From Cloeon dipterum (taxonomy: Eukaryota > Arthropoda > Insecta > Ephemeroptera > Baetidae): DNA of 64,000 nt. The stretch is from positions 5,200,886 through 5,264,885 of the forward strand of contig NC_088789.1 in NCBI RefSeq assembly GCF_949628265.1, read 5' to 3'. Below the pieces are notes generated by a model. The model did no database searches and was not told where the DNA came from. It saw nothing but the letters and a program-made list of their open reading frames with translations. Both the position numbers and the translations under genes were made by a program. Of this stretch, positions 8,708 through 53,879 are shown piece after piece; within the stretch, counting starts at the first letter, position 1; each line of letters begins with the position of its first letter.

Positions 8708-8802
8708 GTGTACGAGTTGTCAAATAATGTAACATGTTTGTTCTATCTTTAATATATGTAACAAAAAATTGGGTGATATATTTACAGTTTCTCATTATGG
8801 CA

Positions 8803-9446
8803 CTACAACAGCTTCAGTCCCTTCACCAGCGACTCCACCTCCCCAGGGCCGACCCCGAGGGCAGTGACGGTTCCGGGCGCGACTTGCGTATGACCGGCAT
8901 CTCTAATCAAAACTGTGTTGAAACCCAGCGTCATAGCTTTTGCATGCAGGTCAAACATGTCAAGTTCACTCTCGCACTTTAGCACAATCTGCAAGAAAAT
9001 TTAATGATAATAATTTTTAGACTACTCAGAAGCAGACATTATTTCATCATTTCATTTATTAATTGGATAACTGGACTATTCAAACTCAAGCCATAATATA
9101 ATAAGACAATTTAAGAAGCTTTGACGGGTGACAAAAATATTGAAATGTTAGAATTTAAATAAAATAACTCTTTTGTCCCCATCTTAAACAGCATCAAGAT
9201 TAAATTATTTACATACTTTTGGTTCTCCAACCATCTCCCATTTGGCTAGGAGCTCAGGAGTGTCACGAAGAGCTTGTCTGTAGCATCCAACAGCAGCATG
9301 GCAACACTGAGCAGCAATTTTTCCTGTTCAAACAGCTACTATAACTGCATGAAGCAGTGCAAATTTTGAAACCAACCTTTTTTCATCTGCAAATCAGTTC
9401 TGACCACAAGGGCCATCTTGAGCCCGTGGAAGAAAATTTTGGTCAT
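8803..9446 (-). CDS. PTRH2: Peptidyl-tRNA hydrolase 2 (PTH2 family, Bit1)
   Basis: Three exons in minus order: 9446-9377, 9323-9217 and 8988-8803, giving 120 residues. PTH2 enzymes cleave the ester bond of peptidyl-tRNA released from stalled ribosomes; vertebrate PTRH2 is a mitochondrial outer-membrane protein also called Bit1. Diagnostic motifs are KMALVVRTDLQMKKGKIAAQ, CCHAAVGCY, LAKWEMVGEPK, and the C-terminal IRDAGHTQVAPGT and ALGVGPG, all collinear with the family. The catalytic domain is complete but starts almost at the first residue (MTKIFFHGLK...). The N-terminal membrane anchor of vertebrate PTRH2 is therefore absent unless supplied by upstream sequence. That upstream sequence is COA4: its stop codon is 3 nt before this ATG, in the same frame and the same exon. 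The transcript may be dicistronic, have its own start, or be made as a readthrough fusion. Introns are 53 and 228 bp. Confidence 0.93.
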
Positions 9447-9449
9447 CTT

Positions 9450-10165
9450 CTACACCTGTTTGCTATTGTGCTCCTGCTGCTTCTTGGTGTATTCGGCCAT
9501 GCACTCACGGAACTCTTGGACTTCCTTCTGGCACTGACGCCAGTCTTGCTTGAAAACAATGCAGTCCTGCAACGAGAAACGACATGTTACTTTTGCAACG
9601 ATACGTATTATACATTCATTTTATTGTAATGACGTAACAAGTACTTGTGTGTGAATAGCAAACAAGTCAGTGCGGGGGATTTGTTGCATCACGTCGTGAC
9701 CCATATTATAGTATCATTGCAGAGGAGTGTCAAGACGTAATGCAGAAAACAAGCTATTTAATATCACGTAACTCAAAGAAGGATATAAGGGTTATTATAT
9801 TTTATTTTAGTTTTTTTTAAATTTAAATAAAGCAGAAAATTTTATTTGAAGGTTGACTTTGAGTGTATTTATAAAATCATCGCTCAATTAATTCTAGTGA
9901 GAAGAATCCCCTAGGTAATTTAAAGTTTCAATTCTAGTGACAAGGAAAGTCAAATCGTCCCAAAAAATTTTAATTCAAAAAATAAAATTTTATTTCATAA
10001 AATCAGATGTATTGAGAAAACTTATAAGTTTTAAATTTGTATTTCAACCTGAATTTTATGATGAAGCTGTATACAACCAGTCTTCTTTAGCATGCCCTCA
10101 ACAGGGTCATCCACATCACTCGGATCTGCTGACTTTTGGTGAACACTGACAGAGGGTGGGCTCAT
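9450..10165 (-). CDS. COA4: Cytochrome c oxidase assembly factor COA4 (CHCHD8)
   Basis: Two exons (10165-10049 and 9566-9450) joined in phase 0 across a 482-bp intron, giving 77 residues. COA4 is a twin CX9C protein of the mitochondrial intermembrane space needed for assembly of complex IV. Both CX9C halves are present: C-IQLHHKIQD-C in the segment that crosses the splice junction, and C-QKEVQEFRE-C after it. Human COA4 has the closely similar QDWRQCQ..VQ.F..CM, so the assignment is firm. The N-terminus is acidic (SADPSDVDDPVEGML) like the human protein. Such proteins usually enter mitochondria through the Mia40 disulfide relay and have no cleaved presequence. MRPS28 starts divergently 236 bp upstream. 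Downstream, the stop codon TAG is followed by AAG and then the PTRH2 ATG, all in one frame. Confidence 0.93.
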
Positions 10166-10401
10166 TCTTCAGTTCAACGCCATGCCTATGACTACAGTTT
10201 GTTATTTGCACAACATCTTATCGAAAAGACAAGGAATAATCACCCCTGCAGTAAAACAAGACGCCACGAGGCCTTCAAGGACCGCAAATTAGCAGCTTAC
10301 GTGCGGCCGGCTGCGAGAGTTGCTCTGCTCTTGGTGCTATTTTCGCCCAACAGCTGCAGCGAGCTGAGCGAGCTGCAGTGAAGAGATCATAATAAACAAA
10401 C
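10166..10401. promoter_or_regulatory. Divergent promoter region, COA4 / MRPS28
   Basis: The 236 bp between the two start codons must hold both 5' UTRs and both promoters unless hidden upstream exons exist. It is GC-richer than surrounding DNA and contains a repeated CTGCAGCGAGCTGAGCGAGC segment near 10350-10380. No TATA box stands out. Both genes encode mitochondrial proteins, which fits a shared promoter for co-expression. Function is inferred from layout. Confidence 0.55.
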
Positions 10402-51400: not shown

Positions 51401-52348
51401 CGATCATGATGAAAATGGTAATTTATTAATTAATAATTAATTCCCAAACGAAATGAAAACTTTTGTTGCTCAACGCACACTTTCTTTATTCCAAAATGTT
51501 TTTTTTTTTAATATGACACATATTAAGTGATTTACTTAACAGCTCTGAATTATTTGGATTTAAGTCTAACCACTGGTGACTGAAACACAGACTCGTCATT
51601 TTAGAATCGTTTGCAATCACGTTTTTGTCGGGCAAATTGCATCTGACAAATTGAGAAACGAAGTGGTCAAGATGCCTGCTGAGCCTGAAAACACTGGCAC
51701 GAAATTTTTATCAGTTACGCCTTGTTTATTCATATTTTTTATATCAATGCACATTTCGATTTTCGGCTTAGGCTCTTTGAGTTGAAAACAAAATACATAA
51801 TATATTTTATATGTAATTAATCAGTTAATCTCAGCATATTTTGCTAAAATGCAAAGCAAAGCTCTATTAAGCTTCAAAGCAATACAAACCAACATTCCCT
51901 AACATTTTTTTTTATCAAAATGAAATGTCACTGGGAAATTACAGAGACATTTTTGCGGTTTTTGTTGGAATATAATTCTTGGCAATATCGCGGTTTTTGT
52001 GAATTTCCGTAAATACAGCTGCACTGATGAACGGATGGGGAGTTTCACTTCAGAGTGCTGATAGAGGATAAAGAAAAAAATATTTTTAGCTCTAATTTTT
52101 TCCTTTAAATTTAATTGCAATAAAATCAAATTATTCGAACTTATTGTTATAACTTAAAGAGATAATTCAGAGTGAAGATGGTTTCGCACATGGTTTGTCG
52201 TTTTTTATAAACAATTATAAAATAATATTACTTATTAAATTTCTTTAAAGCTTTTTTTATCAATTCATGAACGTGACTTGTCCGCGATTAGTGTGCGGTA
52301 ACAAAAAGCAACGCGATGGTGTAAAAGAGCAACAAGGTTCAACGCTTT

Positions 52349-52457
<109 letters not shown>

Positions 52458-53879
52458 CAGTCTTGGTCTCAGCTTGAATTCGCACCAAGAGAGAACAAAG
52501 CAAGGCGACCGGTGTGTGCGTTTTATTGTTCTTGGTTCTGGACAAAGCACCTGAAGGAAGATAATAAAATAAAGGCCCCCATTTGTTAACCTCCGTATAG
52601 GGTGAAAAGTACAATAAGCTCTTCGTGCGTGTTTGGTAAATGCGCAGGGATTTGACAAACTCAGGAGAGTTTTTCTTTTCAAATGTTATTTTGTTAGTTT
52701 CAAAAAGCATTATTAAAAAAAAATTGCGACACGCTTTGACAGAGAAGGCAAAAGAATTCAATTGCGTTTGTTTAGTAACAAGTTGCTGCTGAAAACTCTA
52801 ATAAGAAAGTTTAAAAAAGAAGCTCCTTGTGCGACTTTAGTGATCCTCAATCTAATATTTATCTAAATTTATAATTGATTGTAAAACTTTCAAGTATTTC
52901 TGACCGTCTTTGATTTGAGATCTATTAGCATTTTCCCAGAATATTGCTTTTTTTAATTGCCTTAAGTTTTTCGCTCGTAATTTTGCCTGGAGCTATGCAG
53001 ATGCCATATAATATATGTGACTCGCCGGTGCCGAGCCGTGAGGCCTCCGGCAGATGAGGTCGAAGAAAATCAATAAACCACCTGTAGACGAGTCCACTTT
53101 GATTTCGTCTTTTATTTCCATCTCGCGCGCGCGCGTACCTCTTCTCACGCAGGCCTTTATACGCTCACCGTCGCTCTAGCTGCTGATTAAATCTATCGTA
53201 ATTTTCCTCAGTCCTTGTATATTACTTTATTACCGCTTATAATGTAGAGAGCAACGTGCGCCTCCTCAGAATTTATTTCGCTGGGCAATAACTCGCTAAA
53301 ACTTTAGCACAGATGCAGATTGTATCGTTTTTCCTCTCAGAAAAGTGGCTTTGCAATCTTTCTTTTATACAAGTCTCAACGAAGACTGGTATTGACACCG
53401 AGTTTAAGACGACATAAAATGGTGTTAAACTTGTATTGGCATATTAATTAAAATGTCGGATCAGCTTCTCTTTACTCGTGCAGCGAATCTATTCACAGTC
53501 GGAAAATAATTATCTTTTTATATGGACCCTCTTGTTATGGTGGGCTATTCTATAGAATATCTTCAGTTTTCCTGATGATCCAAATTACTTAAAAACTTTG
53601 ATGATTAATCGCTCATGTTTGCGTCTTCAAAATAACAACTAAGCAAACAAAAGAAGCGATAAAGTTTATCAACAAAAATATAAACAATACTGGAAAATGT
53701 TGTTTACTTAAAATATGTAAATAAAGTAAAAAGCATTTCAGTCTCCTGTTCAACTAGGGATTTTGCTAATAAGCATAATATTATGAGATGTTTTGAAGCG
53801 GCTTGCTATTTTTACAGGCTTCAACGTTACAAAATGTTATTTGATTCTTTATTATTGGGCAATCTTGTGAAAAAATTAT

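Follow-up and report, generated by a model that had tools for sequence, protein, structure and literature searches.

The adjoining genes for COA4 and a PTH2-type peptidyl-tRNA hydrolase, encoded on the minus strand of a 64-kb stretch of Cloeon dipterum DNA (the window), share one exon chain and one reading frame and are parted only by a stop codon and a single further codon. The reading that we favour, at a probability of about 0.58, is that both proteins are made from a dicistronic mRNA, on which ribosomes get to the second frame mostly by re-initiating at the stop codon of the first. Some insect genes, a minority, are known to be expressed from dicistronic mRNAs.

Under this model, the mRNA would start near 10.3 kb, at a promoter common to a divergent gene, and would end at a poly(A) signal near 8.75 kb. 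COA4 would be translated from the cap, and a complete but anchor-less PTH2-type hydrolase would be the second cistron. After termination at the UAG, some 40S subunits would remain on the message and re-initiate at the AUG 3 nt downstream, so that PTH2 would be produced at a reduced level, coupled to that of COA4. The parts of this proposal differ in strength: a single mRNA carrying both frames is strongly indicated by the gene structure, whereas confidence in re-initiation as the route to PTH2 is moderate. A dicistronic mRNA with re-initiation was among the options offered in a first-pass annotation of this DNA, and it is the best reading here as well, predicted from gene structure and spacing.

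Gene structure and the shared exon

At the junction, the minus strand reads GTG-TAG-AAG-ATG-ACC in a single frame, with the TAG at 9452-9450, the AAG at 9449-9447 and the ATG at 9446-9444, so that 3 nt lie between the COA4 stop and the PTH2 ATG. Throughout the spliced frame, this TAG is the sole stop until that of PTH2. The exon holding the junction is bounded by an acceptor (...CGTTGCAG) at 9566 and a donor (GTTGGT) at 9377. The first-pass annotation had placed the three codons and their shared frame exactly to the base, and its interval for the exon, 9377..9566, coincides with both splice sites (Table 1).

Geometry of this sort is by itself weak evidence, for it is not rare. When open frames of at least 40 codons were counted from stop to stop on both strands and in all frames of the 64-kb window, 11 of the 793, COA4-PTH2 included, were followed by stop-NNN-ATG, and placement in the same frame is expected by chance in one third of cases. 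The COA4-PTH2 junction stands above chance because both of its frames are conserved genes.

Table 1. Features of the COA4-PTH2 locus (window coordinates) and of related loci on other contigs
Feature	Position	Strand	Remarks
COA4 coding sequence, 77 codons	10165-10049 plus 9566-9450	-	coordinates include stop
COA4 exon 1, coding part	10049..10165	-	ATG at 10165; 117 nt; joins exon 2 to give 77-aa frame; donor CAG|GTTGAA
COA4 intron 1, 482 nt	9567..10048	-	from splice sites; possible PTH2 promoter site
Shared exon	9377..9566	-	COA4 3' part, TAG, AAG, PTH2 5' part
COA4 stop codon TAG	9450..9452	-
PTH2 coding sequence, 120 codons	9446-9377, 9323-9217, 8988-8803	-
PTH2 start codon	9444..9446	-	context gtgtagaagATGA, A at -3
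PTH2 first coding segment	9446-9377	-	within shared exon
PTH2 exon B	9217..9323	-
PTH2 exon C	8803..8988	-	stop TAG
AATAAA and ATTAAA	first bases 9060 and 9005	-	inside last PTH2 intron
ATTAAA	8748..8753	-	likely shared poly(A) signal; ~50 nt past PTH2 stop
Short upstream frame ATG GCG TTG AAC TGA, then AGA and COA4 ATG	10169..10183	-	4 codons; with COA4 ATG (10183-10165) repeats stop-one codon-ATG spacing, in frame; in mRNA only if 5' end permits
Candidate 55-nt 5'UTR intron	10246..10300	-	CAC|GTAAGC ... TTTTACTGCAG|GGG; best-scoring donor (7/9 consensus matches) within 10430-9450
Divergent neighbour start codon	10402..10404	+	236 bp from COA4 ATG
Open frame, long RERERE repeat C-terminally	52339-52797	-	probably a simple repeat
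PTH2 family gene 1	window gene		3 PF01981 exon matches
PTH2 family gene 2	contig C2		2 matches; first exon encodes MDLLNKSFLAGIGCGACLVWLLMRR ahead of domain
PTH2 family gene 3	contig C1, 16332584-16332976		1 match; UBA and PTH2 domains
PTH2 family gene 4	contig C1		2 matches; presumably PTRHD1-like
CMC4	C4 chain, cistron 1		assembled by eye from two exons; 53% identical to human CMC4 (53 residues)
70-aa frame	C4 chain, cistron 2		no Pfam match
CX9C frame, 64 aa	C4 chain, cistron 3		CHCH 24.9 bits, below cut-off 27.2; presumably NDUFAF8-like
PIG-M, 398 aa	C4 chain, cistron 4; ATG at 18789261	-	PF05007 216.4 bits

The case for a single mRNA comes from the 3' side of COA4. Only 73 nt separate its stop from the next donor, and this part of the exon contains neither AATAAA nor ATTAAA; the first such words downstream are the two in the last PTH2 intron, at 9060 and 9005, followed by the terminal one at 8753. 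COA4 is therefore left without a 3' UTR of its own, and an mRNA that encodes it should also carry PTH2, unless it is ended within the final intron of PTH2. The locus further resembles a dicistronic gene in the FlyBase sense in having two distinct conserved frames on the same strand and in a single exon chain. On the 5' side, a divergent plus-strand frame, which we take to be MRPS28, starts close enough to the COA4 ATG to suggest a shared promoter, and COA4 and this neighbour probably use a bidirectional one.

Identity of the two products

The upstream protein has the spacing C-X9-C-X9-C-X9-C, as does human COA4, and a two-sequence comparison with the human protein, taken as printed in PMC12114033, gave 37.7% identity over 61 residues, QDWRQCQ included (E 3.2e-14). 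Both results agree with the name given in the first-pass annotation. Profile searches were less telling: the score against Pfam CHCH, 25.7 bits, lies below the cut-off of 27.2, the NCBIfam profiles gave no match, and no PDB match appeared up to E 1. A search of the genome with COA4 returned three matches, namely its own two exons and one at chance level (E 1.47), and as far as this search shows the gene is single copy. Among contigs of viruses and prokaryotes, none of 8 pattern matches in the viral set and none of 150 in a further set was confirmed as a COA4 relative. COA4 is described as a cytochrome oxidase assembly factor of the twin CX9C type that resides in the intermembrane space of mitochondria (PMC11011759).

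The downstream protein contains a complete PTH2 domain, matching PF01981 at positions 1-114 of 115 with 139.3 bits and NCBIfam TIGR00283 with 131.9 bits, and it is 53.9% identical to human Bit1 (1q7s) over 102 residues (E 3.8e-32). Searching the whole genome (ten contigs, 190 Mb in total, five of them large at 33-43 Mb) with PF01981 yielded at least eight exon matches, including one at E 2.4; they were grouped as at least four genes. The sampled 2-kb contig ends (ten of ten starts, three of ten ends) held five TTAGG words at most and no evident array, and several were satellite-like; the telomeres are thus missing from the assembly or differ from the usual insect type. A search for PTH2 relatives in viral contigs gave 13 pattern matches, none of which was confirmed.

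Which member of the family the window encodes is a question of its N-terminus. Only 8 residues precede the Pfam match, as the first-pass annotation had implied in saying that the frame begins right at the catalytic domain, and the best mean hydropathy over 19 residues, taken from segments starting within the first 60, is 0.77 for the window protein against 1.52 for its paralogue on contig C2, both values lying below the customary threshold of 1.6. From the position and composition of its N-terminus, we take the C2 gene to be the anchored PTRH2. The window gene was considered for that role and rejected, the PTH2 domain being present but the N-terminal anchor absent and an anchor-like N-terminus being found on the C2 gene; it probably encodes a free, cytosolic PTH2. 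The split between the two looks old, because the window protein shares 54% identity with human Bit1, against 48% with its C2 paralogue. The name PTRH2, used for the downstream gene in the first-pass annotation, was on these grounds imprecise, and the accompanying argument that both products are mitochondrial and that a linked product would be sensible fails for an enzyme that has no N-terminal hydrophobic stretch. A COA4-PTH2 fusion makes little sense because the hydrolase lacks an anchor. The role of yeast Pth2 in preprotein removal, for which it is anchored, can be separated by experiment from its role as a free hydrolase (PMC9892010). The Drosophila gene CG17327 is described as encoding an aminoacyl-tRNA hydrolase, as raised upon CoVa RNAi and as p53-responsive (PMC3411240), and its human orthologue is listed as PTRH2 (PMC7026268).

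Routes to the second frame

In animals, low efficiency is to be expected of re-initiation that follows a 77-codon frame and uses a start just 3 nt past its stop. The viral termination-reinitiation motif UGGGA does not occur in the COA4 part of the shared exon. The junction also shows no unusual structure, with folding z scores of -1.07 for the exon, -0.93 for one shorter piece and -0.69 for another, namely the 65 nt that follow the COA4 stop, for which 44 of 200 shuffles folded at least as well. The absence of such structure gives no support for an IRES or a readthrough element.

The most serious competitor is that PTH2 is made mainly from a shorter mRNA of its own, begun in COA4 intron 1 or arising by skipping of exon 1, the long mRNA serving COA4 only; we consider this a real possibility, though a less probable one than the dicistronic reading. 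Precedent for it is found in flies, where only 45 of the 159 dicistronic pairs in FlyBase release 6.04 are exclusively dicistronic for both genes, 45 having monocistronic transcripts for both and 69 being mixed, and where a promoter further downstream is the usual source of monocistronic mRNA for the 3' gene (PMC4528330). The local sequence would accommodate such a transcript. Exon 2 has one AUG ahead of the PTH2 start, in a weak context (T at -3) and opening a frame of 16 codons, and a donor-like CAA|GTACTT, with its last exon base at 9645, could serve as the donor of an alternative first exon, the intron up to exon 2 then measuring 78 nt. Furthermore, intron 1 contains five ACGT words within 167 nt (9603-9769), a density reached in only 4 of 2550 overlapping 250-nt segments of the 64-kb window, all of them at this place. 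However, the cluster was noticed post hoc and may mean something else, for example a COA4 enhancer, and a separate mRNA would leave unexplained the 3-nt geometry that the locus has in common with the PIG-M chain described below. The earlier remark that no promoter-sized space separates the genes holds for the 3-nt gap itself, but not for the 482-nt intron just upstream, which could hold a PTH2 promoter. Three of the five ACGT words in that intron read TTACGT, possibly a bZIP-type element.

Leaky scanning, in which 40S subunits would bypass the COA4 AUG and reach that of PTH2 on the same mRNA, is a good deal less probable. It has been shown for green-algal bicistronic mRNAs, in which, however, the first frame has a weak context and AUGs are few (PMC11892635), whereas the COA4 AUG has A at -3 and five AUGs precede that of PTH2, three in the COA4 frame, its own included, and two out of frame.

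Least probable is readthrough of the UAG to yield a functional COA4-X-K-PTH2 fusion, which the first-pass annotation had listed among its options. The common frame, with the TAG as its only intervening stop, would permit it, and readthrough is common in insects, but the commonest readthrough codon in flies is UGA (PMC4528330). No unusual structure is seen around or downstream of the TAG, and one codon past it an AUG of its own, with A at -3, opens the whole PTH2 domain. CX9C proteins are retained in the intermembrane space, a compartment that offers no substrate to a peptidyl-tRNA hydrolase, and a fusion would place the anchor-less enzyme behind just such a protein. Splicing offers no better route to a fusion: CAG|GTGTAG at the end of COA4, raised earlier as a possible donor, would when spliced to the next exon give COA4 an alternative tail of 25 residues that leaves the PTH2 frame, and GTGTAG|AAG was judged by eye to be no acceptor, since a purine-rich stretch precedes it. 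Two routes then remain, re-initiation on a dicistronic mRNA and a shorter mRNA for PTH2 alone.

Comparison with known and candidate polycistronic loci

A second locus in the same genome has similarly tight junctions. The CHCH search of the genome gave eight matches at E up to 1, COA4 among them, and near 18.79 Mb on contig C4 it led to a four-cistron chain of CMC4, a 70-aa frame, a CX9C frame and PIG-M. The second exon of CMC4 alone scored 25.4 bits against a Pfam cut-off of 28.9. In order, the junctions are ATGA (a 4-nt overlap of start and stop), TAA-A-ATG (+1) and TGA-GCG-ATG (+3), and the last, before PIG-M, has the same one-codon, same-frame geometry as COA4-PTH2. For the other six CHCH matches, two of them weak (E 0.66 and 0.90), no partner frame was recognised by eye in the surrounding stretches. 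Elsewhere, a presumably MOCS2A-like frame lies directly ahead of a MoaE-family frame on contig C3, and an exon that we take to be mevalonate-kinase-like lies about 1 kb beyond one of the BolA family. Among frames of at least 28 aa judged by eye in the stretches inspected, no CX9C frame was recognised upstream at the PPCDC locus and no methyltransferase frame downstream of a Snapin-like gene; that these fly partners were not seen counts against a general conservation of the fly pairs here.

No report of the COA4-PTH2 pair was found among the literature matches listed (supplementary tables lay outside the search), and none was found that linked PTRH2 with a dicistronic arrangement. If confirmed, the pair would be an unusually tight natural case, with a gap of 3 nt, a common frame and two conserved genes of clear function, and would bear on how animal ribosomes reach a leaderless second cistron, a question for which the C4 chain provides three more junctions. 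A wider proposal is advanced only tentatively and we think it doubtful as a whole: that this genome may regularly use short-range, stop-coupled re-initiation for chains of small conserved genes, with start codons lying anywhere between a 4-nt overlap and 3 nt past the stop, as in bacterial operons, and that in COA4-PTH2 this would link a factor for cytochrome oxidase assembly with the rescue of stalled peptidyl-tRNA in the cytosol, in an animal in which two genes divide between them the functions that yeast Pth2 has in its anchored and free forms.

Fly dicistrons are the closest known parallel. Like COA4-PTH2, the FlyBase pairs consist of two open reading frames on the same strand with a small first frame, and the 3-nt spacing falls within the -34 to 319 nt from stop to start described for loci that make only polycistronic mRNA (PMC4528330). 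The fly pairs are, however, backed by cDNA or RNA-Seq, whereas COA4-PTH2 is known here from the genome alone. As to how the second cistron is reached, the FlyBase authors do not decide between an IRES, resumed scanning and other mechanisms (PMC4528330).

Upstream cistrons encoding CX9C proteins recur in flies and plants (PMC2276209; PMC3426882). Drosophila CG9865, a putative mannosyl transferase, is preceded by three conserved frames, two of them with CX9C motifs (PMC2276209), and in arthropods a putative mannosyl transferase has been reported to have upstream of it the homologue of a plant CHCH frame, that of 'group 8' (PMC2075485). From these descriptions, the C4 chain is the probable counterpart of CG9865. 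The CG9865 locus resembles COA4-PTH2 in that an enzyme is preceded, on the same strand, by small CX9C proteins to which it is unrelated; it differs from COA4-PTH2, as the C4 chain shows, in its proteins and in having four cistrons rather than two. MOCS2A and MOCS2B are likewise made from adjacent frames, those of a dicistronic locus, but they are subunits of one enzyme, unlike COA4 and PTH2, between which we know of no interaction. Finally, the window hydrolase has the complete PTH2 domain in common with the outer-membrane-anchored PTRH2/Bit1 and yeast Pth2 but is without their N-terminal anchor, a distinction that corrects the identity of the gene by separating it from the anchor-bearing PTRH2. 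The interest of the locus lies in its tight stop-start geometry, held in common with a second polycistronic locus, together with a likely split of the Pth2 functions.
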